DNA from: Mycolicibacterium arabiense
GTDB lineage: Bacteria > Actinomycetota > Actinomycetes > Mycobacteriales > Mycobacteriaceae
Length of the DNA stretch: 64,000 bases
Reading direction: 5' to 3'
NCBI RefSeq assembly: GCF_010731815.2
Contig: NZ_AP022592.1
Location: 62,001-126,000, forward strand
The notes beneath the pieces are model-generated. The model did no database searches, was not told the DNA's origin, and saw nothing but the letters and a program-made list of their open reading frames with translations. Each line of letters opens with the position of its first letter. The first letter of the stretch is position 1. The translations under genes and the position numbers were made by a program. Below, in pieces: positions 1,078 to 19,570 of this stretch.

Positions 1078-2321
1078 CGACCACCGACACCACCACCCCG
1101 ACGATCCTCATCTGCGACGACGACCCTCGCCGCGCCGCAGGATGGCGCGACAAGATTGCCGGCATCGCAGGCATCCGCTCGTTCGACTACGACGTCGTCG
1201 ACGGAGACGAACTCGTCACCGAGATCGAGGTCCTGAGTCGACGGCGCGACGCCGCCCGCGACACCGCTGACCCGTCGGATGCGCCGTCGAAGTTCGACAC
1301 CGCCGACATCGCGATCTTGGACTACGACCTCACCCCCGATGCCTCCATGAAGGAGGACTACCAGCGCGCCGACGACCAGTCCACGTTCGCCGACCTGCAG
1401 GACCGGCTGCGGGGCAACACCGGTGAGATGTTGGCCTATCTGGCCCGGTGCTACTCCGGGGTGGGATACCTGGTGGTCGTCAACCAGGGCGTAGCCGATG
1501 CGGCCTTCGACCTGACCCTGCAGCGCTTCGCGTCGTCGAAGGCCGACCTCAACGTCAGTGCCACCGAGCTGGTGTCTGCAGCGCTGTGGACCGGGCAGCC
1601 TGCAAGCGAGCGGTTCAACGCCTGGTCCTGGCCCAGCCTTCAGGACGCCGCGGAACTGTGGGAGCGCCGCCACGCCGCCATCACCCTGGACGGCAGGGTC
1701 TTCGAAACGCTCGGCCTCGATCCCGAACGCGACCGCCTGGCGCCACGCCAGATCGACGTGCTCACCGAATCCTTGAGCGACGTCACCCCGACCACGCCGG
1801 TGAACCTGAATAGCGTGATCTTCGAGGACCTCGTGTCGTCGTCCCTGGGGCTGCTGCCCAAGGACAAGCAACCCAATCCCGAACTGCGCCGCCGCATCGC
1901 CGCGGCGGCGGTGGGACGGTGGCTCGATCATTGGCTGCTCCCCGGGCAGAACGTATTCATCGACCGACCACACGTCGCGGCCACGTTCCCCTCGGCGCTG
2001 CCCGCCGACACCGCCGACGTCAACTGGAAGACACCCGACGCGCCGGCGGCCGCCCCCGCGCCGCTCGATGAGCTGGAGGTGGCGGCGCAGACCTTCCTGG
2101 AACGGCCCGCCTGGCGGTTGTCTCAAGTCCGCGAACTGGCCCGCCAACACGACATCCCCGACCGTGACGTGGAGATGGTGTTCTGCGAAGACGTGTCGGC
2201 GTTTCGTCCCTTCGACAAGGCATGGGAGGTCGACACCGACGTCCCCGGTCCGTTCAGTCGCCGCTACGTGCAGAAACTCGACGAAGTGCATTACTACCCG
2301 CTGACCCGCCTCTACCAGTAA
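1074..2321 (+). CDS. Receiver-domain protein with an unknown output domain
   Basis: The ATG at 1074 overlaps the upstream stop (ATGA), so I prefer it to the in-frame TTG at 1065. The N-terminal ~150 residues look like a response-regulator receiver: an acidic cluster (ILICDDDPRR), then a candidate phospho-acceptor Asp in AILDYDL. A long insertion separates the first strand from the acceptor. The remaining ~270 residues show no helix-turn-helix and match no output domain I know, so this is not an ordinary transcription factor. It may be an effector or adaptor switched by the kinase encoded just upstream. The receiver assignment is moderately sure; the output function is unknown. Confidence 0.75.
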   Translation: MTTTDTTTPTILICDDDPRRAAGWRDKIAGIAGIRSFDYDVVDGDELVTEIEVLSRRRDAARDTADPSDAPSKFDTADIAILDYDLTPDASMKEDYQRADDQSTFADLQDRLRGNTGEMLAYLARCYSGVGYLVVVNQGVADAAFDLTLQRFASSKADLNVSATELVSAALWTGQPASERFNAWSWPSLQDAAELWERRHAAITLDGRVFETLGLDPERDRLAPRQIDVLTESLSDVTPTTPVNLNSVIFEDLVSSSLGLLPKDKQPNPELRRRIAAAAVGRWLDHWLLPGQNVFIDRPHVAATFPSALPADTADVNWKTPDAPAAAPAPLDELEVAAQTFLERPAWRLSQVRELARQHDIPDRDVEMVFCEDVSAFRPFDKAWEVDTDVPGPFSRRYVQKLDEVHYYPLTRLYQ

Positions 2322-2328
2322 CCCCGCC

Positions 2329-3039
2329 GTGACTGCGAACAATCCGTCGCGTACCGCGCTCAGTGAGGTCGAACTGGTCGCCACCGCTTGGAACGATTTT
2401 CCGGGCACCGAACGGACCCCCACCGCCACCGAGGTCCGCATCGAGACCGAACGCGCCCGGTTCCCGACCTTTCAGACACAGCAAATCAGGTCATTCGCCA
2501 CCGGCACTCACGGCAAGTGGGACGACCGCGGATTCCTCACCCCGGCACCGGTCACCACCACCACGCCGCACCTGTACCCGGTGGTGTGGCCCCGGTTCTA
2601 CTGTGAGGATCAGAAACTGGAGATGATGGTGCGGGTGGCGATGTTCTGGTGGGACGGTGACGAGGTCCGCGCCGATGGATGGCGTTTCGAGACCGGCGAC
2701 CCCTACGACTCCCGCAAGGTCACTTACCGAGGTCACTACCGCCCGCACGTGCAACGCGTTCAGCGGTGGTGGCGAACCGGACCCGCCGGTTTCACCGCCG
2801 ACCTCTATGAAGCCGGCCGGCGAGCCCCCGACGCCGTGCCCGACCCCGAACCAGACGCCGCGCCGGTGGTGTCACCGTTCAGCGAGGTTCGTCCTGCCAT
2901 TCCGCTGCCGTCGAGCAGCCTGGCAGGTCTACTGCTGTGCGCGGCGATCGCGGTGCACGGAGCTAGGGCGGCCCAGGAGATTATGGAGGTGGCGGGGGCC
3001 AAGTTCGAATCCGAGTTCCGCAAGATGGCCTTTCCATAG
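2329..3039 (+). CDS. Hypothetical protein, third gene of the kinase-receiver operon
   Basis: It starts at a GTG 7 bases after the receiver gene, so it is probably cotranscribed. The 236-residue product has a Trp/Tyr/Arg-rich centre (for example MFWWDGDEVRADGWRF and VQRWWRTG), a Pro/Asp/Ala-rich linker near residues 160-190, and a C-terminal hydrophobic stretch (SSLAGLLLCAAIAV) followed by an amphipathic tail. The stretch could be one membrane segment or a buried helix. I do not recognise a family. Its place in the operon suggests a role in whatever the kinase and receiver control. Confidence 0.6.
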   Translation: MTANNPSRTALSEVELVATAWNDFPGTERTPTATEVRIETERARFPTFQTQQIRSFATGTHGKWDDRGFLTPAPVTTTTPHLYPVVWPRFYCEDQKLEMMVRVAMFWWDGDEVRADGWRFETGDPYDSRKVTYRGHYRPHVQRVQRWWRTGPAGFTADLYEAGRRAPDAVPDPEPDAAPVVSPFSEVRPAIPLPSSSLAGLLLCAAIAVHGARAAQEIMEVAGAKFESEFRKMAFP

Positions 3040-3280: not shown

Positions 3281-5911
3281 ATGGCTCCAGACGTCGCCGG
3301 GGTGGGCGGCTCGGCCGCGGAGCGGCGACTGCGCATCATCACGGGCCAGAAGACCTACGCCAGCGATTACCGACCCAAGGATCTCGGGTGGCCCGAGCAC
3401 TGCGCCCACGCACTCCTGCTGCGGGCGAGCGTCGCCGGACGGGCGTACACCGGGATCGATCTCGGTCGCATCCGGCCCGACTTGCGGCCCGACCTGGTGA
3501 TCACCGCCACCGACCTGAGACCCCCGTTCCAGAACTTCATCTCCACGATGCCGATCGAACTGTTCGTCACCCCCGGTCAACCGATCGACTACGTGGGTCA
3601 GCCGATCGCGTTGCTGCTCTACGACGATTTCATGTGCTTCAGGCGGGCGGCCCAGGAGATCCGGGAAGACGCCGGTCCCATCGTCTATGCACCTCCACCG
3701 GCCGAGCCGGTGACGGTGACGACGATCGAGGAGGAATTGACGCAGTGGCGCAATCTCCGATGTGATAACGGCCCCAACGAAACTCACTATCTGCTCGACG
3801 TCGACCGAGACTACTCCCAGTGGACCCGAGGCCAACTCACACTCGCAAACGGGAAGTTTCAACGCGGCCAGCGGCCCGACCCGGACGCCGACCGGATGTT
3901 TCAGGAGATGTCCGCCGACGGGGACGGCCGGGCGGTGCAGACCACGACCTACACCCAGACGATCGATCCTGCGTTCCTCGAACCCGAGGCCGGTCTGGGG
4001 TGGCTCGATCCCGCCACCGCCACCCTGAATCTGGTGCTGGGCACGCAGTCCCCGTACAGCGACGTCACCGAAGTGCGGGCGGTCCTGGGAGCGTCGAATC
4101 CGAGGATCCGCGACATCCGCATCACGGCCAAGGACATGGGCGGCGGGTTCGGTGGACGCGACAAGTCGCCGTTCACGCTGTACCTCGCGGTGGCAGCCGC
4201 GTTCGCCGGTTCGCCGGTGCGGCTCGCGTTCGATCGTCGCGAACAGTTTCAGGGTGGTCTCAAGCGGCACGCCTCGGCGGTGCACTCCCACATCCGCGCC
4301 GCCGCGGACGGCACCCTGGATTCGATCCGCACCTTCACCGTCTTGCGAGGTGGTCCCGAGACCAACCTCAACGGGGCGGTCCTGTCGTTAGCGGCGTTGC
4401 ACGCGACGGGCCCCTACCGCGTTCGCCGCGCCGGATCGCATGCGGTAGTCGTGCAGCGACCCATACCGACCGTGGGCTCGATGCGCGGCTTCGGCATCCC
4501 GCAGGTGGCGTTCAACGTCGAAACCGCCATCGACCGGCTCGCCGTCCTCGAATTGGGGGAAGATCCCATCGCGTTCCGCAGTCGCAATGTCCTGCGCTCG
4601 GGTACCGACCGGGATCTCGCCGGCACGCCGTTGCGGTTTCACCTTCCGACCGCCGAGATCTGCGACGCGGCGCACGCGCATGAGCTGTGGCAGGGACGCC
4701 ACGACCTGAGGTGCGGTGAAGGCGTGTACCGCGGCGTCGGGTTCGCCTGCTGCATGGAGGCGTACGGCACCAGCAGCGACAGCGTGTACTGCGCGGTGCG
4801 GGTGACGGCCGACGGCGGGATCGAGGTGTGGTCGCAAACCCTCGACATGGGGCAAGGGGCCCGTCAGAGTCTGGAACTGGTAGCCACCGAGGAACTCGGC
4901 CGGCCCGCGCGGGCGGACCTCGGCATCACGGGCTGGTTCGAGAAGTTCGCCGGCCACCTCGCCACCCACCATGCGCACGACCCGACGTTCAAGAACTGGT
5001 CGCTGGTCCACGGCGCCAGCAGCGCCTCGAAGACGGCGTTCTTCCACGTTCACGCGCTGCGCGAAGCGTGCCGGGCCTTGCTCCGGCTGCGGCTACTCCC
5101 CGCCGCGCGGGTCATCCTCGGCGAGCCAGACCTCGCCGACGAGGAACTGCTGAGCTACTGGAGGAACGGGGAGGTCCAGCTGCCCGGCCGACCCAGCGTG
5201 CCGCTGGCAGACCTCGCCGCCCACGTGCACCAAAGCAACGCCGAGCCCGGAGTCATGGTTCACGGATACTTCAACAACGGCTGGTCGAGCGCACGCTTCA
5301 CCGTCGACGGCCACACCCTGGACCTGTGGGTCGACGGCTTGGCGTTCATCCGGGAACCCGGCGACGACATGACGATCCTCGCGCCCCAGGGTGATATACG
5401 CATGCCGCCGCTCGCACCTGGGGGATCGAAGATCCCGCGGTCGGTGTACGCCTCGGGTGCCCACCTCATCGGCGTCACCGTCGACACCCGGCGCGGCGCG
5501 ATCACCGTCACCGACGCAGTGACCTTCCTCGACGCGGGCGACGTCATCGCCCGCCCGGTCGTCGACGGACAAGTGGAAGGCGGGTTGGCGATGGGCATCG
5601 CGCACACCCTGTTCGAGGAGCTGCCGCCGGAGACCGGTGCCGGCCCGTTCGCGAACTTCGACCGCTACCGGCTTCCACGGTGGAACGACCTGCGCGCCAT
5701 CACCAGACAGACCGTCCCCGTGGAACTCGGTCCCGACGGGATACTCGGGCCTGACCAACCCAACGTGCGGCACAAGGGAATCGGAGAGGTGACGATGACC
5801 ACCGTGGCCCCCGCGATCGCCAACGCCGTTGCCCACGCCCTGGGCCACGTCGATGCCCGGTGCTGGCCGACGCGCACGCCGATCCGCGTCGCGGACCTGT
5901 CGCTGCCATGA
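3281..5911 (+). CDS. Molybdenum hydroxylase large subunit (xanthine dehydrogenase/aldehyde oxidase family)
   Basis: This 876-residue protein resembles the Moco-binding subunit of the xanthine dehydrogenase family. Residues 20-130 look like the aldehyde-oxidase a/b hammerhead domain. Further on are the family motifs GGGFGGRDK (about 287), RGFGIPQVAF and MGQGARQS, and near the C-terminus GIGEVTMT, whose Glu matches the catalytic base of the family. It should hydroxylate an N-heterocycle or aldehyde using water. The small [2Fe-2S] subunit follows with an ATGA overlap. No FAD subunit is nearby, as in isoquinoline oxidoreductase-type enzymes that pass electrons elsewhere. The substrate cannot be read from the sequence. 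No Tat signal is visible, so the site is probably cytoplasmic. Confidence 0.85.
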   Translation: MAPDVAGVGGSAAERRLRIITGQKTYASDYRPKDLGWPEHCAHALLLRASVAGRAYTGIDLGRIRPDLRPDLVITATDLRPPFQNFISTMPIELFVTPGQPIDYVGQPIALLLYDDFMCFRRAAQEIREDAGPIVYAPPPAEPVTVTTIEEELTQWRNLRCDNGPNETHYLLDVDRDYSQWTRGQLTLANGKFQRGQRPDPDADRMFQEMSADGDGRAVQTTTYTQTIDPAFLEPEAGLGWLDPATATLNLVLGTQSPYSDVTEVRAVLGASNPRIRDIRITAKDMGGGFGGRDKSPFTLYLAVAAAFAGSPVRLAFDRREQFQGGLKRHASAVHSHIRAAADGTLDSIRTFTVLRGGPETNLNGAVLSLAALHATGPYRVRRAGSHAVVVQRPIPTVGSMRGFGIPQVAFNVETAIDRLAVLELGEDPIAFRSRNVLRSGTDRDLAGTPLRFHLPTAEICDAAHAHELWQGRHDLRCGEGVYRGVGFACCMEAYGTSSDSVYCAVRVTADGGIEVWSQTLDMGQGARQSLELVATEELGRPARADLGITGWFEKFAGHLATHHAHDPTFKNWSLVHGASSASKTAFFHVHALREACRALLRLRLLPAARVILGEPDLADEELLSYWRNGEVQLPGRPSVPLADLAAHVHQSNAEPGVMVHGYFNNGWSSARFTVDGHTLDLWVDGLAFIREPGDDMTILAPQGDIRMPPLAPGGSKIPRSVYASGAHLIGVTVDTRRGAITVTDAVTFLDAGDVIARPVVDGQVEGGLAMGIAHTLFEELPPETGAGPFANFDRYRLPRWNDLRAITRQTVPVELGPDGILGPDQPNVRHKGIGEVTMTTVAPAIANAVAHALGHVDARCWPTRTPIRVADLSLP

Positions 5912-7665
5912 ACTACGAGCCGACCGTCGCCCTCGACATCATCGTCAACGGCGAACACCACCACGGGCGCCGCGTCGCCGCCGACATGACCCTGGTGCAC
6001 TTCCTGCACGAAGACCTGGGGCTGACCGGCACCAAGATCGGCTGCTCCATCGGCGAGTGCCGCGCGTGCACGGTAGCGGTGCAGGTGGAACCCGACGGGC
6101 CACCGGTCACCCGCCAGGCCTGCATGACCGGGATGCGCCACACCGCCGGGTGGAAGGTCACCACCATCGAAGGCCTCGGCGAACCCGACGAACTGAACCC
6201 CGTGCAGAAGGCGATCTTCACGCGCCAAGCCTTCCAATGCGGTTACTGCGCTGCCGGTTTCGCCGTCGCCGGGACCGTCGCCCTGGCCGGTGTCCGGCCC
6301 GGCGACGACGCCAAGGCCGTCGAGAGGCGCGTGGACGCCGTCCTCGGGCCGCACCTGTGCCGATGCACCGGCTACGGCCGATACCGCGACGCCATCCTCT
6401 CGGCTGCACCGTCGCAGGCAGCGGCACCCGAGGTCAGACTCTTCGCCTCACCACCGACCGGACTCAACGCCTCACCGGCGATGAGGCCATCCGCGGCACC
6501 GATAGCCCGACCCGTCATGCAAGCGCTGACCAAGGCCGACACCGACGAACTGGGCTACACACCCGTCTTCGACGACCCCACCCTGGAACTCGTCCGGCTC
6601 CTCCGCGACGGCGCCGAGATCGAACACTCCCTGCTCGTGCAATACCTCTACGCCGCCTTCTCGGTGAAACTCCCCGACTACGCCCAGCTGGCGGGATGGC
6701 CCAACCACCGCTACGGCGGGCGTCCCCTGCACGTCATCGGCGTGGCCATCGAGGAGATGACCCACCTCGACGTGGTGAACGAACTGCTCGTCGCACTGGG
6801 CGCCGCACCGCACCTGGGCAGACAGCAGTTCCCCTACGAAACCGACATCTACCCGTTCGACTTCACCCTGGAACCGCTGAACCTGCACAGCATCGCCAAG
6901 TATCTCTACGTTGAAGCGTCCACCACCGCCGTCGACCTCGACGCGCCACAGGACCCCGAGCACCGCGCGATGCTCGAACGCCTCTACGCCGCCCTCAACA
7001 GCACTGCACCCCACCACATGCGTCCCAACCAGGTCGGCAGCCTCTACCGAAAGGTGGTGCGGGTGTTGAAGCTGCTCGAACACCGCCACCCGAGCAGTCT
7101 GGACTACGACTACTGGGGTGCGCGCCTGGGCGTCGTGCTCGAAGAAGGCGAACACGAACACTTCGACTTCTTTCGCACACTGTTCGACGGAACCCATCCC
7201 GCCCTGCCCGCCGGTGGACCCGACATATGGGACCCCACCCACCCCGAGCACCCCGTCCTCGCCTTGAAACTGGAGTCCGGGCTACCGCGATCGGGCGAGC
7301 CCATCGTCGACGAGCTACTTCCCGCGATGCGCCACCTGTCCAACCTGCACTACTGGGCGGTGTGCATGCTGCTGGACCTGTCCTACCGCCACCGTGGGCG
7401 GTTCCACAGCGCGGCGCGTCGACACATGACCGGCCCGCTGCGCAGCCTGGGATCGGCGTTGGCCACCCACGGCCACGGCGTGCCGTTCGACGCGTTCGTC
7501 GCCGGCTACGCACCCGGACTGGACAGCCGACGCAACCTCGAACTCGCGGTGTCGATGCTGCAGCAGACCCTCATCGCCCAACAGCGCTACGCCCGCCACC
7601 TCCCGCCCGACTACGCCCACACCTGCGTCACCGAGACACTGTGGGAACTCAGTGACCTGTGCTGA
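5908..7665 (+). CDS. [2Fe-2S] hydroxylase subunit fused to a ferritin-like (VioB/RebD-type) domain
   Basis: The ATG at 5908 overlaps the stop of the large subunit. Residues 1-165 are a molybdenum-hydroxylase small subunit. Cys46, 51, 54 and 72 form the plant-ferredoxin cluster, and Cys111, 114, 151 and 153 (CGYC and CRC) form the second cluster. An Ala/Pro-rich linker (about 168-205) leads to a second domain of ~375 residues with EIEHSLLVQYLY, EEMTHLDVV and EEGEHEHFDFF. These Glu/His motifs match the ferritin-like domain of iminophenylpyruvate dimer synthase proteins (VioB, RebD). Small subunits of this family are normally ~160 residues, so the fusion is unusual. It predicts that the product of the Mo enzyme, or its electrons, meet a diiron or oxidative-coupling centre. 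Domain calls are firm; the joint function is inferred. Confidence 0.85.
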   Translation: MNYEPTVALDIIVNGEHHHGRRVAADMTLVHFLHEDLGLTGTKIGCSIGECRACTVAVQVEPDGPPVTRQACMTGMRHTAGWKVTTIEGLGEPDELNPVQKAIFTRQAFQCGYCAAGFAVAGTVALAGVRPGDDAKAVERRVDAVLGPHLCRCTGYGRYRDAILSAAPSQAAAPEVRLFASPPTGLNASPAMRPSAAPIARPVMQALTKADTDELGYTPVFDDPTLELVRLLRDGAEIEHSLLVQYLYAAFSVKLPDYAQLAGWPNHRYGGRPLHVIGVAIEEMTHLDVVNELLVALGAAPHLGRQQFPYETDIYPFDFTLEPLNLHSIAKYLYVEASTTAVDLDAPQDPEHRAMLERLYAALNSTAPHHMRPNQVGSLYRKVVRVLKLLEHRHPSSLDYDYWGARLGVVLEEGEHEHFDFFRTLFDGTHPALPAGGPDIWDPTHPEHPVLALKLESGLPRSGEPIVDELLPAMRHLSNLHYWAVCMLLDLSYRHRGRFHSAARRHMTGPLRSLGSALATHGHGVPFDAFVAGYAPGLDSRRNLELAVSMLQQTLIAQQRYARHLPPDYAHTCVTETLWELSDLC

Positions 7666-7856
7666 CGGCAACGACCTGCGCGCCGGTGGCGGCGGGCCGG
7701 TGAACCCGTCCGCGCCGCGAACGGCCGACGCGTCACCTTGCGCGTTTTCGGTCCGGCGGCGCGCTGGCTGACGTAGCGTCGCAGCACGGGATGACGACCG
7801 CCGCGCCGGTACGGGCACGTCGAGTGCCGGCGTCGCGCATAGGGGGACCACGCGCC

Positions 7857-9008
7857 ATGTCCAACATCTACGCAGGTATGCGCCGCACGTTCGGCCAGGA
7901 TGACGAGGGTCTACGACGATGCGCTCAGCGCCTGGTGGCACTGCGCGCCGGCCTGGGCGAGGTGCGCGACCTACGCACCGACGACTCACTGTTGCTGGCT
8001 ACGTGGAACATTCGCGACTTCGACAACAACAAGTTCAAGTTCGGGCCCCGCAAGAAGGAGTCCTACTACTACCTCGCCGAAATCATCGCCAGCTTCGACC
8101 TGGTGGCCATCCAGGAGGTCAGCCGTGACCTCGGGCCGCTGCGCGATCTGATGGACATCCTCGGTGGCGGCTGGGACTACATCGTCACCGACGCCACCGA
8201 GGGATCCGGCGGCAACAGCGGCGAACGGATGGCCTACGTGTTCGACACGCGAAAGGTGTTCTTCCGGAAAATCGCCGGCGAGGTGGTGCTTCCCGACGGG
8301 CAGGTCATCGTCTCCGCCGACGACGCCGAATTAGCCCCAGAGCGGGCGCCGATCGGCAACGGCCAGTTCGCCCGAACCCCCTTCCTGGTGGCCTTCCAGG
8401 CCGGGTGGTTCAAGTTCAGCCTGTGCACCGTCCACATCTACTACGGCTCGGAATCCGGTGAGGATCTCGCGCGCCGCTCCGAGGAGATCGGTCGGCTGGT
8501 GGGTTTCTTCGCCAAGCGTCAAGACGCCGAGGAACGCGCCGACAAGAAGGCGGCCAAGGCCCGCGGCGGTCGATTCGCCTCCGCGCAGACCGAGAACTAC
8601 ATCCTGCTCGGCGACTTCAACGTGGTCAGTCCCGAGCACGAGACGATGTCGGCGCTCAAGGCCAAGGGATTCGAGGTTCCCGACGCCATCGATGGTGCCG
8701 CCGTGCGGCGCGACGGCGAACACTTCTACGACCAGATCGCCGTGCGCGTGAAGGACGATCGTTTCACCGTCACCGGCGGCGGAATGATCCGCCCCTACGA
8801 GCACGTGTTCCGCGACGAGGACGCCGACATCTACGAATCCGATTGGCGGCCGGTCAAGGAACGCAACCTCGAACCCGGCGACGTCGAGGCCGACGACCTG
8901 TCGTTCTATCGGAAGTGGCGCACCTGGCAGATCTCGGATCACCGACCCCTGTGGGTGCGGATCACCACCGACTTCGCCGACGATTACCTCACCGACCTCG
9001 CCACCTGA
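7857..9008 (+). CDS. Endonuclease/exonuclease/phosphatase-fold protein
   Basis: The ATG at 7857 follows AGGGGGA at a good distance, so it is chosen over an in-frame ATG 66 bases upstream. The 383-residue product has the EEP fold motifs in order: ATWNIRDFD (metal-binding Asn), AIQEV (catalytic Glu), GERMAYVF, LLGDFNV (Asp/Asn) and ISDHRPLWV (final Asp-His pair). Such proteins cut phosphodiesters in DNA, RNA or small molecules with Mg2+. A Lys/Ala-rich insertion sits near residue 225. It lies 191 bases after the hydroxylase operon on the same strand and next to a PD-(D/E)XK-like gene. That neighbourhood hints at nucleic acid, but the substrate is unknown. Confidence 0.8.
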   Translation: MSNIYAGMRRTFGQDDEGLRRCAQRLVALRAGLGEVRDLRTDDSLLLATWNIRDFDNNKFKFGPRKKESYYYLAEIIASFDLVAIQEVSRDLGPLRDLMDILGGGWDYIVTDATEGSGGNSGERMAYVFDTRKVFFRKIAGEVVLPDGQVIVSADDAELAPERAPIGNGQFARTPFLVAFQAGWFKFSLCTVHIYYGSESGEDLARRSEEIGRLVGFFAKRQDAEERADKKAAKARGGRFASAQTENYILLGDFNVVSPEHETMSALKAKGFEVPDAIDGAAVRRDGEHFYDQIAVRVKDDRFTVTGGGMIRPYEHVFRDEDADIYESDWRPVKERNLEPGDVEADDLSFYRKWRTWQISDHRPLWVRITTDFADDYLTDLAT

Positions 9009-10170: not shown

Positions 10171-11397
10171 CTACACGGTCTCCCCGCGGTCCGGCCCCGC
10201 GGTGGACGGGTACGCGGGCCCGGTTGACCCGTCGCCCCAGGGCACTATGCGCGGGGGGATGAGCACGGGCTCGACCTCCCCGTGGAGGCCGGCGTGCAGC
10301 TTCGCGAGCAGGTCGATGGTGGCTTCCATCTTCTCCCGCTCAGGAGGGGCCATCGTGATCCAGCGCTGCGCGGGCGGCAGCCACGTGCGGTGGTGGGAGT
10401 TGTCGTTGCCGGTCAGCATCACACTGCGTTGCCCGTCGTCGTGCACGGCGCGGGGATCCTGGACGGTCGAGCGGCCTGCCGACGGTGCCGCGAGGTGCAC
10501 CATGTAGGCCAGTGCGTCGCTGTCGCAGATCACGGCGTCGACGTCTTCGCGGCGCAGCCAGTCGCGCAACTGGGAGCGGTGCCGTTCACTGCTTGGGGTG
10601 AACGAGTCCAGGTAGCTGATGGTGGTGCGAGGGACCTCACCGCCCACCGCGTCCGCGACGGCCTCGCGCCGATCGCGGGTGACGTGGCTGGTGTCATCGG
10701 AGAAACCGACGTGACCGAAGGTGCGGCACCCCGCCTCACGCAGACGCCGAACCATCTCGGCGATCGCGCTGTGGTTGTCGGTCTCGACGTAGGGATGCCG
10801 GGGCGCGGGCTCACCCGAGGTCGAGCGACGAGGTAACCCGAGCGCGACGTAGGGCACCCCCTGCGCTGCGAGCATCTCCAAGCGCGGGTCATCCACGGAC
10901 AGGTCGTTGACGACGAACATCCGCACCAATCGTTCGCGCATCACCTCCTGATAGGTCCAGGGCGCCAGGGTGTGGGCGTAGTCGCGGTGCCAGCCCTGCA
11001 GGCCCGATTCCCGCTCGGCGCGTTCCTCGTCGGTGCCGCCCACGACGTCGTCGACGCCGGGAACCCGGGGGTCGACGACGAACGGCACGAGGTGCGCATC
11101 GGCGGACTGCGCCGCGTCGAGCAGTTCGTGGAACTGCACGTCCATCACCGGGGACTGCATCGACCACGACCGCGGCATCTGGTAGCCGATCGCGACTTTG
11201 TCCAGAGAACCGCGCCCCCGGCGGATCGGCCGGTAACCGGTCTCGGCGACCGCACGAGCGATGCTCCGCCGCAATTCGGTCGACAGCCGCCCCGGGCGGT
11301 TGAAGAAGTTGCGAACCGACTCCGCACTGGCCCCACTGCGTTCCACGACCCTGTTGAACTCGGCCTCACGCGACGGCCTGCCCACCGGACGATTCAT
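10171..11397 (-). CDS. LacI-like transcriptional regulator
   Basis: The N-terminus (AEFNRVVERSGASAESVRNFFNRPGRLS, split here as a helix-turn-helix followed by a hinge) resembles LacI-family heads ending in AETGYRPIRRG. A periplasmic-binding-protein-like ligand domain follows. It contains typical elements such as VAIGYQMPRS, PYVALGLPRRS, VETDNHSAIAEM (the usual DN in the ligand pocket) and FGHVGFSDD. I take the ATG at 11397, which has GAGG 7 bases upstream, over the GTG at 11403. The gene diverges from the nucleotidyltransferase gene at 11536, so it probably controls that operon and itself. The recognition helix departs from the usual VSxATVSR pattern, so the operator may be atypical. Confidence 0.75.
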   Translation of the reverse strand: MNRPVGRPSREAEFNRVVERSGASAESVRNFFNRPGRLSTELRRSIARAVAETGYRPIRRGRGSLDKVAIGYQMPRSWSMQSPVMDVQFHELLDAAQSADAHLVPFVVDPRVPGVDDVVGGTDEERAERESGLQGWHRDYAHTLAPWTYQEVMRERLVRMFVVNDLSVDDPRLEMLAAQGVPYVALGLPRRSTSGEPAPRHPYVETDNHSAIAEMVRRLREAGCRTFGHVGFSDDTSHVTRDRREAVADAVGGEVPRTTISYLDSFTPSSERHRSQLRDWLRREDVDAVICDSDALAYMVHLAAPSAGRSTVQDPRAVHDDGQRSVMLTGNDNSHHRTWLPPAQRWITMAPPEREKMEATIDLLAKLHAGLHGEVEPVLIPPRIVPWGDGSTGPAYPSTAGPDRGETV

Positions 11398-11535
11398 GAT
11401 CACACCTCGGAAATAAGTCGGCTATTTACATGTACAAGATGTGGGCAGCCGGGATAACCTGGTACACGGTAACGCACGAAACAATTGAACGAGGTCAGAA
11501 CCCTCCCCGTACCCCAACTCACGAAAGAGCTAGCC
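11398..11535. promoter_or_regulatory. Divergent promoter region between the regulator and the nucleotidyltransferase operon
   Basis: This 138-base, relatively AT-rich gap should hold both promoters and the operator. A perfect 8-base palindrome TACATGTA lies at 11427-11434. An AAATA/TATTT inverted pair spaced by 7 bases is at 11411-11427. Neither has the CG-centred form typical of LacI operators, so the binding site is only a guess. Confidence 0.35.
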
Positions 11536-12369
11536 ATGGAACACGAATTTCGCACCGAGGCCTTCGAGGACATGAAGACCAACGAATGGTTCGGCCCGGC
11601 GATGGAGGTCTACTGCCTCAACGACCTGAGGGCGGCCGGATATCAACGACCGCTGACCGGGGTGGTGAAGGCATCCCGCGACAACCCGGTCACGTTCTTC
11701 GAGCGTGAGAACCATCCCTACGTGCGGTTCGCCAGCAGCCACTACTTCGATGAGATCCAGTGGGCCGCGCTGCAGGACGATCCGGTCATCATCTCGGCGA
11801 TGGGTTCCTACGCACCCATGCACGCAGGGCACGTGGAGATGGCCGAGGCCGCCGACACGGCGCTGCGTGCGGAGGGGTTCACACCGATCGCCGCGGTGTT
11901 CTCCCCGCATAGCGAACAGTACGTGCGTGCGAAGATCCTGCCGACGCGTCGGGACGCGCTGATTGCCACCGACGCCCGCATCGCGCAGGCCGAGGACGTG
12001 CTTCCCCCTCGCCTGCGCAGCGGGACCCCGACGTTCATCGACACCTGGGATGCGAGGATGCCCGGCGGTCCGCGCAGCTTCACCGATATCATGATCCGCC
12101 TGGTCAGAACTCTGGAGGCCGCCCAGATCCGCAACGTCACGCCCGTCGCGGTGTTCGGTCCGGACAACGGGATCTCGATGCGTGCCTTCGCCCGCGCGGG
12201 TCAGGCGGTGTGCGTCATCCGACCCGGCCACGAGGACGAGGCCAAGCCCTACGAGGCCGAGCCGCAGATGAAGGCCGCGCTGCGGCAGAAGCGGGTGATC
12301 GTCGCCACCCGCGAGCACAACACAATAATCTCCTCAAGCGAGATTCGCCAACGCAGGGCGGCGGGGTAG
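11536..12369 (+). CDS. Nucleotidyltransferase of the NMNAT/cytidylyltransferase-like (HxGH) superfamily
   Basis: The ATG at 11536 follows GAAAGAG. An upstream in-frame TTG at 11485 is less likely. Residues 85-99 read IISAMGSYAPMHAGH, the first strand plus the HxGH signature of nucleotidylyltransferases. The C-terminus carries IISSSEIR, equivalent to the ISSTxIR motif that binds the nucleotide triphosphate. The ~80-residue N-terminal extension is not part of standard NadD. The enzyme should join NMP from ATP or CTP to a phosphorylated acceptor and release pyrophosphate. It heads a tight operon whose next gene, 2 bases on, is an APH-fold kinase. A kinase plus nucleotidyltransferase pair could activate an alcohol or a cofactor precursor. 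The substrate is not known. Confidence 0.75.
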   Translation: MEHEFRTEAFEDMKTNEWFGPAMEVYCLNDLRAAGYQRPLTGVVKASRDNPVTFFERENHPYVRFASSHYFDEIQWAALQDDPVIISAMGSYAPMHAGHVEMAEAADTALRAEGFTPIAAVFSPHSEQYVRAKILPTRRDALIATDARIAQAEDVLPPRLRSGTPTFIDTWDARMPGGPRSFTDIMIRLVRTLEAAQIRNVTPVAVFGPDNGISMRAFARAGQAVCVIRPGHEDEAKPYEAEPQMKAALRQKRVIVATREHNTIISSSEIRQRRAAG

Positions 12370-12371
12370 CG

Positions 12372-13319
12372 ATGACGATCGCCGGACTCCCCGAACCCGC
12401 CGAGGTACTGCGCGACGCGCGGTTGCCGAGGGACGCGACGACGTTGGCGCGCCAGCGCTTCCACCTGGTCGCCTCGTCGGCGTCGGTGGGGCTCGTGTTC
12501 CGCGTCGGCCTCGCATCGGTGGACTCGGCCGCAGCCGACCCCTGCGATGTCGGACGCTCCCACGAACTGGCCGCTGCCATGGCCGATGCCGGGCTCAACG
12601 TCCTGGCACCGACGACGGCGGCACCCGAGCACCGCGGCCGCTACGTCGTGTCGGCCTTCCCGCTCGCCGAACCCCTCGGTGGCACCGGATGGCGCGCGCA
12701 GGAACCCACCCTGCTCGGGTCGGCCATGACCCGCTGGGCGGACTTCGGCTCCCCGTTGCTCGCGCCGCTGGACATCCCCGGATACACCGCGGGCAGGATC
12801 GACACCGCCGCCGCGTCGGCCGACGACGACCTGCGCGAGGCCGCGCAGTGGTGCCGCGCGCAGCGCGAGTCCCTGGACCGCCGTCATCCGTGGGGGCAAC
12901 TTCTCGACGGGGGCGGATGCGTCCACGGCGACCCGAATCTGGGCAACCTGGTGCGCGTCCCGACGACGAGGACCCCGCTGTTCATCGACCTGGACTCGGT
13001 CAAGTACGGGCCGCGCTGGTACGACCTGGCGGTCATGTCGACCTACGCCGTGCGCTTCACGTCGCACTACCCGTGGAGCGAGATCATGGCCGGCTACCAG
13101 CGCGTCGCCGGCACCGTCGACGTCGACGTCCTCTGGGGGCTGCGCCGGTGGAAGGAGTTCTCCTCGGCGACCCAGCTACTCACGCGGTGGTCGGAACCGG
13201 GCATCGCGCAGGAGTTCCGCAGGCGCACCGGCCTCGACGACACGGGTCGCTGGCGCAACGTCACCAGAACGCTGGTTCACGTCCGCCCCGTTCACGCCGG
13301 GCAGCAGCACCGGGGGTAG
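12372..13319 (+). CDS. APH-fold phosphotransferase family protein
   Basis: The ATG at 12372 lies 2 bases after the preceding stop. The 315-residue protein has the kinase signature of aminoglycoside/choline kinases: CVHGDPNLGN (His185, Asp187, Asn192) and FIDLDSVKYGPRWYDLA (metal-binding Asp206/208). The N-lobe is poorly conserved and a clear ATP-anchoring Lys is not obvious. Members phosphorylate small alcohols or sugars, and some RiPP pathways use them to phosphorylate Ser/Thr of a peptide. Here it lies between a nucleotidyltransferase gene and a small peptide gene, so both a small-molecule and a peptide substrate are possible. Confidence 0.75.
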   Translation: MTIAGLPEPAEVLRDARLPRDATTLARQRFHLVASSASVGLVFRVGLASVDSAAADPCDVGRSHELAAAMADAGLNVLAPTTAAPEHRGRYVVSAFPLAEPLGGTGWRAQEPTLLGSAMTRWADFGSPLLAPLDIPGYTAGRIDTAAASADDDLREAAQWCRAQRESLDRRHPWGQLLDGGGCVHGDPNLGNLVRVPTTRTPLFIDLDSVKYGPRWYDLAVMSTYAVRFTSHYPWSEIMAGYQRVAGTVDVDVLWGLRRWKEFSSATQLLTRWSEPGIAQEFRRRTGLDDTGRWRNVTRTLVHVRPVHAGQQHRG

Positions 13320-13618
13320 CGACGCTCCACGGCATTACCGATGGAACGAATTGTTCCGCCACGGAGCCGACAGTCGCAGTGCTCGAGGCCGCAGTGCTCG
13401 TCGCAGCACCGACGCCACCGCCGGGATGCGGGCCTCGGTCGCCGCGGCCGTCGAGAAGGCCCGATGAGGTCGACGTAGATCCCGCCGCGGCAGCGTCGCG
13501 CCGACGTCACGCGCCGCCGAACTCGTCGGCTGCACGAGATTTGCCCAATACCCGTCGCGGTGGTAGCCGCGGTCGTACGCTCGGCGCACGTTCACCGAAC
13601 TGTGATGGGGGAGAAATC
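13320..13618. other. 299-base gap before the small peptide gene
   Basis: No convincing gene was seen on either strand. An AGGGGGAGAA-type ribosome site lies just before the ATG at 13619. The length of the gap suggests that the peptide and oxygenase genes have their own promoter here, but I could not identify -10/-35 boxes. Confidence 0.4.
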
Positions 13619-13801
13619 ATGGGTATCCGCGACGTTCGCAAGCAGCTCGACGGCGAGGGCGACGACACCGTGCTGGATCGGTCCGATTCCGCCGAGGCGC
13701 TGTCCACCCGCGACCAGGGCGGCCAGGAGGCGTCGATGCAGGACGGCTCCGACGCCTTCGAGTCCAACCGCGCGACGCTCAACATGATCACCCAAGCCTG
13801 A
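13619..13801 (+). CDS. 60-residue acidic Cys-free peptide, candidate precursor or substrate
   Basis: The ATG at 13619 is preceded by GGGGGAGA at a good distance, a stronger ribosome site than at most genes around it. The 60-residue product begins MGIRDVRKQL, is rich in Asp, Glu, Ser, Gln and Gly (for example DGEGDDTVLDRSD and STRDQGGQEASMQDGSD), and ends in ATLNMITQA. It has no Cys, signal peptide or hydrophobic segment. The TGA overlaps the ATG of the next gene (TGATG), so translation is coupled to a JmjC-like oxygenase. Size, composition and coupling fit a modified-peptide precursor or a small accessory subunit. I recognise no family. Being expressed is likely; the role is inference. Confidence 0.65.
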   Translation: MGIRDVRKQLDGEGDDTVLDRSDSAEALSTRDQGGQEASMQDGSDAFESNRATLNMITQA

Positions 13802-14706
13802 TGTCGGTCGCCGCTGACCCGGCGACGAAACCCGCAGGCAGCGCGGCGCGACGGTTGATCGCCGACCTGCACGCTCGCGACGTGCTGGTACCCGGAGACC
13901 GGCCGGTTCGGCCGTCGGTGGTCACCGGAATCGACGTCGACGGGTTGTTCTTCGCCCCCGCGGAGCTGATGGGACTTCTCGACCGCAGCCTGTTGCGATG
14001 GCCGTACGTGACGGTCGTCCACCACGGAGCCACGTCGTCGATCGGTGAATTCACCCGCACCCGCAACGTCATCGGTCATCGCCGAGACGGGTTCGTCGAC
14101 CGCGCCAAGATCCGCGCCCTGATGAACAAGGGCGTATCGGTGAAGTTCAACTCCATCTCGCACTGGCACCGCCCGGTACGGGAGCTGGTGACCGCGCTCG
14201 AGGCCCAACATCCCTGGGCCGTGTCGAGTTACGCCTTCTGGACGCCACCCGCGGAGTCGGGGATGCTCCCGCACCGCGACCCCGGGCACGTCGTCGCCAT
14301 ACAGCTGGCGGGCCGCAAACGCTGGCAGTTGTTCGACGCGGTCGACGACGAGCGCGGGACCCCCGGCATCGACGTGGACCTCTCGCGCGTCACCGACGAC
14401 TTCGTCGTCTCCGCCGGCGACGTCGTCGTGCTCCCGCACGGAACGCCGCACGCCGCGCACGCACTCGACGAGGAGTCCCTGCACCTCACCCTGACCCTGA
14501 CAGAGCCCTCCGCGATCGACCTCTTGGAGGGGTTCCGCCAGGTGACCGTCGAATCCGACCGCCCGACGTTCGTCGAATTCGACAAGCTGAGCCTCGATGA
14601 GCGACCGAGTGCCGTGATCGCCGCGATGCGGGCGCGTGTGCACGATCTGGACACCACCGCCTGGCTCGACGCCACGCTGGCCCTGATGCGCGAAAAGACC
14701 GGTTAG
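13801..14706 (+). CDS. JmjC/cupin-like Fe(II)/2-oxoglutarate-type oxygenase, first copy
   Basis: The ATG is inside the TGATG overlap with the peptide gene. The 301-residue protein shows the JmjC-type metal triad: HRD (His158, Asp160) in GMLPHRDPGH, then a distal His in VVLPHGTPHAAH (about 217). Between them lies VAIQLAGRKRWQLF, which matches the strand that binds the cosubstrate in cupin_4/ribosomal-oxygenase proteins. An upstream conserved stretch reads VSVKFNSISHWHRP. Members hydroxylate amino-acid side chains in proteins or peptides, or small molecules. The translational link to a 60-residue peptide makes that peptide an obvious candidate substrate. Confidence 0.8.
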   Translation: MSVAADPATKPAGSAARRLIADLHARDVLVPGDRPVRPSVVTGIDVDGLFFAPAELMGLLDRSLLRWPYVTVVHHGATSSIGEFTRTRNVIGHRRDGFVDRAKIRALMNKGVSVKFNSISHWHRPVRELVTALEAQHPWAVSSYAFWTPPAESGMLPHRDPGHVVAIQLAGRKRWQLFDAVDDERGTPGIDVDLSRVTDDFVVSAGDVVVLPHGTPHAAHALDEESLHLTLTLTEPSAIDLLEGFRQVTVESDRPTFVEFDKLSLDERPSAVIAAMRARVHDLDTTAWLDATLALMREKTG

Positions 14707-14708
14707 AC

Positions 14709-15641
14709 ATGACAATCCACGACACCACGCACACCTCGAGCCCCCGGCTCACCACGACCGCGGCTCTTCGCGCGCTCGTCGGCGACGTCGCGGAGTTCGA
14801 CGGGCAGTTCTGGGAACGCCGCATCGGGATGTTCTCCGCGGCTCCCGAACTCACCGACCTGGTCACCGAGCAGGAGATGTGGGAGGCCGCCGAGTGCGGG
14901 TTGCTGATCCGGCCCTACTTCACCTGCTTCAACAACGGCGTCCGCGAGCCGCTCGACGAGATCGCCACCACGCGGTGGGTCGGTGAACGCGAGATTCCCG
15001 GTTACATCGACGCCGACGCGATACGCACGGCCTTCGCCCAGGGTGCGACCTACAAGTGGAGCCAGGCCGAACACTGGCATCCCAGGATTGGCGAGTTCAT
15101 CGCCGACCTGCGGCACAGCTTCCGCGGTCAGACCGAGGCGTTCGTCTTCCTGTCCCCGCCCGGCATCACCGCCATGCCCGCCCACATGGACGGCTCCCAC
15201 GTGTTCATCCTGCAGGTCGCAGGAACCAAGGACTGGAACGTCGCCGCGCTCGGCGACACCACCACCGGTCTGCCCGAACGCTACTGGCGATCGCGGATCG
15301 AAGAGGACCGCCGCATCGAGTTCAGCCTGACTCCGGGCGACGTCCTGTACTTGCCGCACGGAACGCCGCACCACGCCCAGGCCCGCGACGGCAACTCCAT
15401 CCACATCGCCATCACCGTGGAGGAGCCCACGACGCTTGAGCTGGCCGACGTCGTCCTCGCGGACTGCCTGCAGCACACGGCGTTGCGCGCCGTAGAACGC
15501 CGCTACCCCCTCGACGAGCCCCGCCGCTTCGCCGAGCAGGTGCGCGCGGCGCTCAGCGACTTCCTCGACGACGGGATTCGGCCCGACGACGAGTACATCG
15601 CCGACGCCGTCCGCGTGATCAGCCACCACCTCGACGACTGA
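14709..15641 (+). CDS. JmjC/cupin-like Fe(II)/2-oxoglutarate-type oxygenase, second copy
   Basis: It starts 2 bases after the first oxygenase gene. The 310-residue product has the same plan: ATYKWSQAEHWHPRIGEF upstream, the HMD pair (His159, Asp161) in PAHMDGSHVFIL, QVAGTKDWNV, and the distal His (about 221) in YLPHGTPHHAQ. The two proteins share the HWHxP element and the LPHGTPH end motif but are otherwise far apart. They are therefore old paralogues, probably with different target residues or successive steps. Both metal triads look intact. The substrate is unknown. Confidence 0.8.
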   Translation: MTIHDTTHTSSPRLTTTAALRALVGDVAEFDGQFWERRIGMFSAAPELTDLVTEQEMWEAAECGLLIRPYFTCFNNGVREPLDEIATTRWVGEREIPGYIDADAIRTAFAQGATYKWSQAEHWHPRIGEFIADLRHSFRGQTEAFVFLSPPGITAMPAHMDGSHVFILQVAGTKDWNVAALGDTTTGLPERYWRSRIEEDRRIEFSLTPGDVLYLPHGTPHHAQARDGNSIHIAITVEEPTTLELADVVLADCLQHTALRAVERRYPLDEPRRFAEQVRAALSDFLDDGIRPDDEYIADAVRVISHHLDD

Positions 15642-15658
15642 TCCGAGTTCCCCGAGCC

Positions 15659-16549
15659 GTGGCGGCCGTCCCCGACGTCGAGCCAGACGAGAGGCCTCAG
15701 GGTCGCGCGGACCTGGTCGCCGACCTGGACCACCTCGGGGTGCGTCCTGGTGACACTCTCATCGTGCACGCGTCGATGCGCGCGGTCGGCCGACTCCTGG
15801 GCGGCCCCGCCACCCTGCTCTCGGCGCTCGAGGACGCCGTCGGCGTCGCCGGGACCATCGTGGCCCCGGCGTTCACCACCTATTTGGCCGACCCCAGCAT
15901 CTGGCGTCGGCCGCCGCCCCCCGACGATTGGGGCCGGATTAGGCGTGACACACCGGCATTCGACCCCCAACGGCACCCGGCGCAACGAAGTTTGGGGGTG
16001 TTCCCCGAACTGCTGCGCACCTGCGGCCGCGCGGTGCGCTCAGCGCATCCGTTGTACTCGTTCGCCGCTGCGGGCCGATTGGCGGCGACACTGTGCGCCC
16101 CCCACCCCCCGGACTTCGCGTTGGGATGCCACGGGCCGCTGCAGCGACTGCACGACGCGGGTGGTCGCGTGCTGCTGATCGGCGTCGGGTGGGATCGCTG
16201 CACGTTACTGCATCTGGCAGAACACCACGTGCCCTACCGCGGCCGGCGCAGTTATCGGTCGTTGGCGCCGTCGGCGGCGCCGCAGGGGACCACGGCGTGG
16301 AACCCCACGCGCCAACTCGTTCTGCACGAAGGCGACTTCGCCGAGATCGGCCGCCGGGTGGAGGCCGCCTCCCGTCCGCATCCGGTGATCCGATGGGGCA
16401 CCGTGGGCTCGGCCGAGGCCGTCCTGGGCGAGGGGCGCGACCTCACCCTGGATGCCGCGCGGCTGCTGATGAGATTTCGCGACCTGTCGAGCGCGACCCG
16501 TTCCGAGCCGTATCCGCAGCTGCGCGAGGAGGGGATGGGCCGTCGGTGA
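15659..16549 (+). CDS. AAC(3)-family N-acetyltransferase
   Basis: It starts at a GTG 17 bases after the second oxygenase gene. The 296-residue protein matches the antibiotic_NAT fold: VRPGDTLIVHASMRAVG, AGTIVAPAFTTY, HPLYSFAAAG and GVGWDRCTLLHLAEHHVPY, which corresponds to the conserved GVxxxxNTxxHxAE segment. Such enzymes transfer acetyl from acetyl-CoA to an amino group, classically N3 of 2-deoxystreptamine. As the last gene of a kinase/oxygenase operon it may acetylate the pathway product, for tailoring or self-protection, rather than confer drug resistance. The usual Asn before Thr is Cys here (DRCTLLH), a small deviation. Confidence 0.8.
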   Translation: MAAVPDVEPDERPQGRADLVADLDHLGVRPGDTLIVHASMRAVGRLLGGPATLLSALEDAVGVAGTIVAPAFTTYLADPSIWRRPPPPDDWGRIRRDTPAFDPQRHPAQRSLGVFPELLRTCGRAVRSAHPLYSFAAAGRLAATLCAPHPPDFALGCHGPLQRLHDAGGRVLLIGVGWDRCTLLHLAEHHVPYRGRRSYRSLAPSAAPQGTTAWNPTRQLVLHEGDFAEIGRRVEAASRPHPVIRWGTVGSAEAVLGEGRDLTLDAARLLMRFRDLSSATRSEPYPQLREEGMGRR

Positions 16550-18339: not shown

Positions 18340-18411
18340 ATGCCCTACCTCACCGACATGTACCACGACCAGAACGCGACGCGGCAGCACATCAACAAAA
18401 CGTCGCGGTGA
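18340..18411 (+). CDS. 23-residue leader-like frame overlapping the AAA+ gene start
   Basis: ATG at 18340 opens MPYLTDMYHDQNATRQHINK plus three residues. Its TGA overlaps the GTG start of the AAA+ gene (GTGA), the same coupling used by real operon pairs in this window. It may be a leader peptide or the decayed 3' end of an upstream gene. Confidence 0.3.
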   Translation: MPYLTDMYHDQNATRQHINKTSR

Positions 18412-19570
18412 AATCGGTCGCCGCGTTCGACCGCGACACCTTCGTCGCCCGACTTGGGCAACGGATCCTCGGTCAGCCTGACGCCGTCAGCGCAGTGGCC
18501 CGGGCGCTGTCGATTGCACATGCCGGTGTTCACGATCCCGGTCGTCCTCTAGCGAGCGTGCTGCTCGTCGGGCCGACCGGGACCGGCAATACCGAACTCG
18601 TCCGTCAGGTCGCCGCCGAAATCCCCTCTGGGGCTGACGACCTGTGCCGGATCGACATGGCGGTCCTAGCCCAAGAGCATTACGCAGCGTCGTTTTCCGG
18701 CGCGCCCCCGGAATACCCCGGAAGCAAGGAGTCCTTCACCTTGCTCGACAAGGACAAGATCGAAGGGGACCCCTATACCCCAGGCATCGTGCTCTTCGAC
18801 GAGGTCGAGAAGGCCGATCCCACGGTGATACGTGCACTGCTGCACGTTCTCGACAGCGGGGAGCTGCGGCTCGCGAATGGACGCGAACGCATCTCCTTCC
18901 GTAACAGCTATGTCTTCATGACATCCAACCTGGGATCCAGGGACGTCGCCGAAGCGCAGCGCGCATCTCGCTGGTCGTCGCGATGGCGCCGACTGCGCCA
19001 ACCCGGCTCGACACAATCCGCCCCGCGACTGCCTGGGCCCACGATCTGGTGACGTCCGCAGTCGAGAAGTTTTTCAACCCCGAGTTCTTCAATCGGATCG
19101 ACGAGACAGTTGTCATGAAACCTTTCGAGACCTCGACAGCCCGGCAGGTCACCGAGCGTGAAGTCGGTCTGTTCACCACACGGTTAGCCCGTGAATCCGT
19201 AGAACTTCGGATTGACGACACCGTGGTCGACTTTCTGCAAGCTTGCGGGTTCGACCCGATCTACGGTGCCCGCGGATTACGCAGAACGTTCCAAACGCAT
19301 CTAACAGCCCCCGCAGCCGACTGCGTATTGCGCAGTCGCACCACGCCAACCGCGCCCATCGTGGTCGACGCGACCGTGGTCAACGGGGCCATCGTAGTGA
19401 CCTCGGCTCTCCACGTCGCCGGCTCGCAGCACCAGATCGTCGTCGACGCCGCGAAAGCCGTCGTCGTTGTGCGATTGAGACGGTGGCAATTTTCCACTGT
19501 CTCAATCGCGATCGCACCGAAGTGTCAAGCCTCGGCGGCGGTGTCGTTTCATCACGGTGACAAAACTTAG
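18408..19570 (+). pseudogene. ClpB-type AAA+ ATPase (D2 module only), frameshifted, Walker A mutated
   Basis: The protein begins directly at a D2-like AAA+ module (RILGQPDAVSAVARAL), with no Clp N-domain or D1. Walker A reads GPTGTGNTEL, with Asn in place of the essential Lys. Walker B (IVLFDEVEKAD) and sensor 1 (VFMTSNLGS) are intact. Near 18950 the frame shifts and continues from about 18983 with FFNPEFFNRIDETVV, the arginine-finger region (NRID), and a ClpB_D2-small-like domain up to about 19460. The Lys loss and the frameshift make an active unfoldase very unlikely. Single-module ClpB-like ATPases do occur in actinobacteria, so a once-complete short gene is plausible. Confidence 0.75.
19471..19509. 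terminator. Strong hairpin at the end of the AAA+ remnant
   Basis: GCGATTGAGACGGTGG (19471-19486) pairs with CCACTGTCTCAATCGC (19494-19509). The stem has 16 pairs with one G-T mismatch around a 7-base AT-rich loop. There is no clear T-run, so it is either a terminator-like hairpin or the joined ends of a lost element. Confidence 0.45.

Follow-up and report, generated by a model that had tools for sequence, protein, structure and literature searches.

A probable minimal peptide-modifying cassette with twin JmjC oxygenases in Mycolicibacterium arabiense

The stretch of DNA analysed here, referred to as the window, comprises 64,000 nucleotides of Mycolicibacterium arabiense (contig NZ_AP022592.1, positions 62,001 to 126,000). 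Six of its genes lie close together on one strand and encode a nucleotidyltransferase (NT) with the fold of a nicotinamide mononucleotide adenylyltransferase (NMNAT), an APH-fold kinase, a 60-residue peptide, two oxygenases of the JmjC type (JmjC1 and JmjC2) and an acyltransferase of the AAC(3) fold, next to a divergently oriented regulator (Table 1). A sequence-only reading had treated the six genes as one unit and proposed either a system resembling those of ribosomally synthesised and post-translationally modified peptides (RiPPs), or a small-molecule pathway with the peptide as carrier or chaperone. The locus is better described as an addition to a peptide family that has received little study than as one six-gene pathway. 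It is likely that the last four genes (13619-16549) form a minimal RiPP-like cassette and that the first two (11536-13319) are a separate pair, and the four genes, a conserved kit, probably make a small, chemically modified peptide with the help of the oxygenase pair.

Table 1. Genes and other features of the locus, in window coordinates.
Feature	Position	Strand	Remarks
NMNAT-fold nucleotidyltransferase (NT)	11536-12369	+	APMHAGH motif; module A
APH-fold small-molecule kinase	12372-13319	+	PF01636 E 8.7e-10; module A
Gap	13320-13618		299 bp; boundary between modules A and B
60-aa precursor-like peptide	13619-13801	+	leader start MGIRD, C-terminal decapeptide RATLNMITQA; module B
JmjC1 oxygenase	13801-14706	+	JmjC_2, Fe(II) triad H158-x-D160...H217; module B
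JmjC2 oxygenase	14709-15641	+	JmjC_2, H159-x-D161...H221; module B
AAC(3)-fold acyltransferase	15659-16549	+	closest solved relative FrbF (3sma); module B
Divergent regulator	10171-11403	-	Peripla_BP_3 (LacI-type sensor domain)

All six frames are open at the coordinates originally given for them, on the same strand. The tight spacing described for them holds at four of the five junctions (2 bp, a 1-bp overlap of peptide stop and JmjC1 start, 2 bp and 17 bp) but not between kinase and peptide, where the gap, covered in the sequence-only reading by the word "mostly", turns out to be the boundary of two modules. Within this gap none of 20 query proteins finds a match, and a simple scan reveals no promoter-like site. 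Third-position G+C is 0.92 in the peptide gene against 0.84-0.91 in the five larger genes. Pfam bears out the family assignments made from the letters for both oxygenases (JmjC_2), the acyltransferase (Antibiotic_NAT) and the kinase (APH). The call of a nucleotidyltransferase agrees with the NMNAT fold of its model, whereas its CTP_transf_like match (E 0.0036) stays under the Pfam cut-off; similarly, the LacI-like regulator passes the cut-off for Peripla_BP_3 but its LacI helix-turn-helix score falls under that of Pfam.

The ATG of the peptide gene is preceded by a strong ribosome-binding sequence, GGGGGAG. The frame remains open far upstream of this start, which is attributed to the high G+C content, and the assigned start is supported by relatives that likewise begin with MGIRD. 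No Pfam or NCBIfam family matches the window peptide at E ≤ 1.

Relatives of the locus were collected through JmjC1. At E ≤ 0.001 a protein search retrieved 92 proteins, and the top 47 (window included) were aligned as a subfamily. Four patterns from this 47-row alignment, scanned against genome_contigs (84,980 species), returned 81 stretches, 28 of them encoding a relative, and a plasmid search with JmjC1 returned 46 records at E ≤ 1e-5, from which the best four and two weaker ones were examined. A related peptide gene immediately precedes a JmjC gene in 20 of the 28 genome loci and four of the six plasmid loci, making 25 peptide-bearing loci with the window. The loci that lack it are L053 and L054 on plasmids and eight in genomes: L038, where the contig only starts at the gene; L042 and L043, each with one distant JmjC match and YcaO-TfuA; and the distant L044-L048. 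In the nearest set, the 21 loci L021-L041, the peptide is missing from L038 alone, and at least two JmjC genes are present in 20, L041 showing one. The constancy of JmjC1 is built into a collection made with JmjC1, and the fair evidence is that of the second JmjC gene and the peptide. At E ≤ 1e-35, JmjC1 is found in two of 394 genomes of the class, its own and one with a locus that is a near-copy of L030, peptide included; on plasmids no close DNA relative was found. The co-occurrence of the peptide with twin JmjC proteins across actinobacteria, for which the sequence-only reading had proposed neighbourhood and profile searches, is thus seen repeatedly, and the locus displays a feature of RiPP systems, a short gene-encoded precursor conserved together with the modifying enzymes beside it.

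The related peptides are encoded by frames of 38-58 residues with the same end pattern, just upstream of a JmjC gene; they vary in length, and the four on plasmids are annotated as "hypothetical protein". Their leaders are of the MGIRD/MALRD type, of an MSxDDK-like type or of others. The last ten residues are alike, as in P-MVIENINEA, P-KTIMNQISAA and, in the window, N-RATLNMITQA. An alignment of 22 peptides with divergent leaders shows an Ile column in 22 of 22, an Ala end in 21 and a Pro 8-10 residues before the end in 20, the exceptions to the last being the window peptide and the metagenomic P0002. These two agree at every one of their last 19 residues and are 83% identical overall, the differences lying further upstream. 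A variable leader followed by a conserved C-terminal core, as in RiPP precursors, is therefore found in the family, to which the profile match of the window peptide is weak. A profile of the 21 other peptides recovers 24 loci at E < 1e-8 among 5,876 open reading frames (ORFs), all at known places and all belonging to the training set or being near copies of it. What assigns the window peptide to the family is its position, the pattern of its two ends and the conservation of its partners, not a significant score.

Both oxygenases match JmjC_2 (PF08007), with E 1.6e-17 and 4.7e-20. The Fe(II) ligands of JmjC1 are invariant in the 47-row alignment and those of JmjC2 in 14 loci, the window included. 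The model of JmjC1 has a predicted local distance difference test (pLDDT) score of 89.9 and its best structural matches, with which the profile agrees, are NO66 (E 2e-18), MINA and YcfD. The JmjC domain and the HxD...H iron ligands of the YcfD/NO66 type are present in both proteins, and the fold in JmjC1; the pair is predicted to consist of Fe(II)/2-oxoglutarate oxygenases of this ribosomal-oxygenase type with hydroxylase activity. Across 14 loci the JmjC1 distances rise with those of JmjC2 (rho 0.92), and across 13 loci both follow those of AAC(3) (0.79 and 0.83), correlations that are partly expected from shared ancestry. A tree of JmjC1 joins the window to the metagenomic P0004 and P0005 (100/100), and this group falls in the half to which all AAC(3)-bearing loci belong (99/99).

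Partner genes were counted by tblastn at E ≤ 1e-5 in the fetched stretch of each locus, usually about 10 kb on each side and in several cases ended by contig ends. YcaO and TfuA are encoded in 20 of the 25 peptide-bearing loci and an S9 peptidase match is present in 17, which places the family among RiPP clusters; matches to M16 peptidases occur in seven, to AAC(3) in 13, to GNAT in 15 (three weak) and to the major facilitator superfamily (MFS) in 20. The S9 and M16 enzymes are candidates for removal of the leader. The JmjC pair is near-constant and YcaO-TfuA variable, and the oxygenases are for this reason the likely defining modifiers of the family. The fetched stretches of L021, L049, L050 and L052 contain no YcaO, yet peptide, JmjC pair and AAC(3) are kept, and with the window these loci make up a YcaO-less subgroup. 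L049 is the cluster on the NBC_00316 plasmid of Streptomyces. The AAC(3) gene tracks the M[GA][IL]RD leader, being present in 13 of 14 such loci (the exception, L026, lies on a 7.4-kb contig) against none of 11 with other leaders. A transketolase-like gene tracks the other leader type (8/11); it was seen in L030-L036 and L040 and tested with Pfam in L030, and a partner subunit was seen in L032. L030 additionally encodes a CmcI-type methyltransferase. The idea that Pro in the peptide predicts an S9 peptidase is suggestive at most, since L021, L049, L050, L052, L037, L040 and L041 have the Pro and no S9 match.

Given that the best structural relatives of JmjC1 are the ribosomal oxygenases NO66, MINA and YcfD, the pair might act on a cellular protein, for example a ribosomal one, with the peptide as regulator or partner subunit rather than substrate. 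The frequent presence of YcaO-TfuA and S9 genes in the peptide-bearing loci and the concentration of conservation at the C-terminal end of the peptide make this very unlikely. The earlier proposal of a carrier or chaperone would likewise be disfavoured, because it is the C-terminal end that is most conserved and because YcaO-TfuA and S9 peptidase genes are common neighbours.

The acyltransferase matches Pfam Antibiotic_NAT with E 4e-62, above the fold-family cut-off, but reaches 180.9 bits against the 270 bits of the NCBIfam AAC_3 aminoglycoside cut-off, so that a role in aminoglycoside resistance is not implied. FrbF, its closest solved structure, acetylates a CMP (cytidine monophosphate)-linked intermediate.

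The left module presents a different picture. The AlphaFold model of NT (pLDDT 82.5) finds its best Protein Data Bank folds among nicotinamide and nicotinic acid mononucleotide adenylyltransferases (E 2.4e-8), the fold thus agreeing with the family although the score of 33.2 bits is under the 112.45 bits of TIGR00482; the NMNAT-like part starts near residue 80, after an extra N-terminal helical part. Homologues of NT are rare: the search yielded 17 proteins, the window's own included and P0096 and P0099 among them, and only its own genome carries one at E ≤ 1e-20 among 397 genomes of the order or at E ≤ 0.001 among 100 relatives. On plasmid pGBRO01 of Gordonia bronchialis, NT and kinase genes are adjacent in the same order with different flanking genes (44.5% identical), and neither this plasmid nor any other Gordonia record is among the plasmid matches of JmjC1 at E ≤ 1e-5. 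The window regulator has no homologue in the 34 JmjC-bearing relatives, and a conserved regulator for module A was rejected, as neither of the genes on the two sides of the Gordonia pair matches the window regulator. A phage origin of NT was also rejected, with nothing found in viral_contigs or phages. On plasmids of Streptomyces and Variovorax, more remote relatives of NT adjoin nadE and a 2-oxoglutarate-Fe(II) oxygenase gene; the two loci (L068, L069) share these genes and a large protein with an NT-like domain (PF01467, tested in L068). This context suggests nucleotide chemistry, possibly by a nucleoside kinase and an adenylyltransferase, and the APH-fold kinase and the NMNAT-fold enzyme of the window would probably convert a nucleoside-like substrate into a nucleotide or dinucleotide.

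These observations bear on the view that all six genes serve one pathway, in which the kinase would phosphorylate the hydroxylated peptide, the NMNAT-fold enzyme would add a nucleotide cap and the AAC(3)-fold enzyme an acetyl group. The shared strand, the spacing that is tight at all junctions bar one and the position of FrbF as nearest solved relative of the acyltransferase speak for it, and set against them are the 299-bp gap, the pGBRO01 pair in a record with no JmjC1 relative and the finding that 0/34 JmjC-bearing relatives carry either NT or kinase, which together leave the single pathway quite unlikely. The sequence-only reading had named separate conserved neighbourhoods as a sign of an accidental unit; this applies to NT and kinase, whereas peptide, JmjC and AAC(3) genes stay together. 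Its RiPP-like interpretation accordingly survives for the peptide, the twin oxygenases and the acyltransferase, which recur together across actinobacteria (the acyltransferase with one leader type), and is not supported for NT and kinase, and phosphorylation of the peptide by the kinase is left without comparative support.

The cassette looks imported into its host, as judged from its distribution, because, among 297 genomes in the genus, its own is the only one with JmjC1 at E ≤ 1e-20, although more distant JmjC proteins are frequent, with 32 of 61 relatives having one at E ≤ 0.001. The host genome measures 6.45 Mb in two contigs, and the window belongs to the one of 434,050 bases; each contig has a TrwC relaxase gene (C1:43284-44546 and C2:5952376-5953638). 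A third, distant JmjC-type match of 28% identity is found on the larger contig at C2:1959262-1959855. The locus could then be a non-functional horizontal import, in which the peptide and oxygenases remain while protease, transporter and thioamidation genes have been lost. The relaxase-bearing contig, the solitary occurrence within the genus, the missing Pro of the peptide and the absence of YcaO would agree with such an origin, the window giving no match to YcaO-TfuA and the genome none to YcaO (TfuA was searched in the window only, and the control of the genome search was positive in 5 of 14 known genomes). However, all frames are intact, both JmjC proteins keep their Fe(II) triads, the last 19 residues are unchanged in P0002, and the four other YcaO-less loci retain peptide, JmjC pair and AAC(3), though they also have GNAT and MFS genes; a dead import is on balance unlikely.

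The interpretation as a peptide cassette is itself weakened by several of these points, namely the solitary JmjC1, which leaves a decayed or unused import possible, the missing Pro, the lack of a protease, transporter or YcaO gene beside the window peptide and of YcaO in the genome, and the part of shared ancestry in the distance correlations. To these are added the long branch of the window JmjC1, without a resolved sister, and the behaviour of the peptide in searches: as a protein query it matches only itself and P0002, and by tblastn on plasmids at E ≤ 10 it meets two unrelated places and no family member. The profile of the 21 other peptides ranks it second among 700 window ORFs (E 0.47) and an RD-leader profile first (E 0.065), both scoring it as an N-terminally extended frame, and sequence alone provides no tie to the Streptomyces peptides.

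Within the peptide cassette, as the preferred interpretation has it, the 60-residue peptide would act as a precursor, with a leader beginning MGIRD that may be recognised by the JmjC pair and some ten C-terminal residues as the core. JmjC1 and JmjC2 would hydroxylate the core, the likeliest sites being at or close to the invariant Ile and the succeeding N/S/T/D, after which a host protease might free the core. The AAC(3)-fold enzyme could then acylate the new amino terminus or the new hydroxyl, or else protect the producer.

Further observations concern the surroundings. The clusters L024, L027, L028 and L029 of Streptomyces stand directly behind rpoC, a repeated insertion spot. That this rpoC is a self-resistance clue to the target was rejected, as L027 shows a housekeeping operon with rplL and rpoB before rpoC; at that place L024, L028 and L029 have a gene matching it in cluster and length (upstream genes were scanned in L027 only), and the genome of the window has one rpoC match. 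In L025 a Tn3-family transposase adjoins the cluster. An anti-phage defence locus was rejected, none of the PADLOC families matching the seven locus proteins at E ≤ 0.01. Elsewhere in the window, 37-3039 encodes a HATPase protein and, after it, two ORFs for which Pfam gives nothing at E ≤ 0.01; this may be an operon for signalling or conflict. Positions 3281-7665 hold a xanthine-dehydrogenase-like large subunit (MoCoBD domains) and then a protein in which, unusually, [2Fe-2S] domains are fused to a ferritin-like one; this is followed at 7791-9008 by a protein of the endonuclease/exonuclease/phosphatase family. To judge by eye from the listed ORFs, two overlapping ones at 18408-19570 look like parts of a single, disrupted Clp-type AAA+ ATPase.

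Comparison with known systems gives the cassette a precedent and sets it apart. In the biphenomycin RiPP pathway the JmjC/cupin-like hydroxylase BipG/PbsQ is reported to hydroxylate ornithine (PMC12707348; PMC12257519), which provides a precedent for a hydroxylase of this kind in a RiPP pathway; as described there, it is a single enzyme beside a multinuclear non-haem iron-dependent oxidative enzyme (MNIO) and a radical S-adenosylmethionine enzyme, whereas here two co-varying JmjC genes adjoin the peptide. Clusters of the thioviridamide-like and thiovarsolin type, with YcaO and TfuA, share a short precursor encoded first in the cluster as well as the enzymes common in the present loci (PMC6511847; PMC8120280). 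The latter paper describes mining of YcaO-TfuA clusters, with an S9 prolyl endopeptidase in a figure legend, and names Streptacidiphilus carbonis NBRC 100919, the strain of L041, as having two tfuA genes together with three of ycaO. Neither main text contains the words "JmjC" or "cupin", and in contrast to thioamidated RiPPs the constant part here is the twin JmjC pair, the YcaO-less subgroup having no such genes in the stretches covered.

With YcfD/RoxA, NO66 and MINA the oxygenases share the fold, the Pfam family and the HxD...H triad, but JmjC1 is only about 20% identical to these ribosomal oxygenases, its model has a helical C-terminal part and no winged helix, and a small peptide gene adjoins. 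Fusions of a RiPP recognition element (RRE) with JmjC (PF08007) have been described, and bacterial JmjC homologues noted near RiPP-like genes (PMC12710340); unlike the fusions described there, the JmjC1 model shows no RRE-like beta3-alpha3 segment. The left module resembles NMNATs in the fold of NT, and APH kinases, and has the pGBRO01 pair as a counterpart with adjacent genes in the same order.

A further parallel is provided by ribosomal protein uL16 of Escherichia coli, in which RoxA hydroxylates Arg81 and YcaO thioamidates Met82 (PMC13063428), the same two superfamilies co-occurring in most relatives here. A separate RiPP class might be imagined, with an obligatory ribosomal-oxygenase-type JmjC pair acting on a core of about ten residues, mostly combined with thioamidation as a peptide counterpart of the uL16 mark, and with the YcaO-less window member turned by the kinase and the NMNAT-fold enzyme into a nucleotide-capped hydroxypeptide, but this is a long shot. 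No description of a twin-JmjC peptide family or of a YcaO-less subgroup was found in the literature searched, closed-access papers lying largely outside the search. JmjC hydroxylation in a RiPP pathway is already known from biphenomycin; what appears new is a peptide family with twin JmjC genes as its hallmark, along with its YcaO-less subgroup, which represents the simplest version. The family offers a testable handle on peptides whose constant enzymes are twin oxygenases and not YcaO. A YcfD/RoxA-type oxygenase and YcaO both act on uL16 in E. coli, and in many loci of actinobacteria their relatives are encoded next to a gene for a small peptide, so that the family may illustrate a route by which enzymes that modify ribosomes were recruited to natural-product chemistry.

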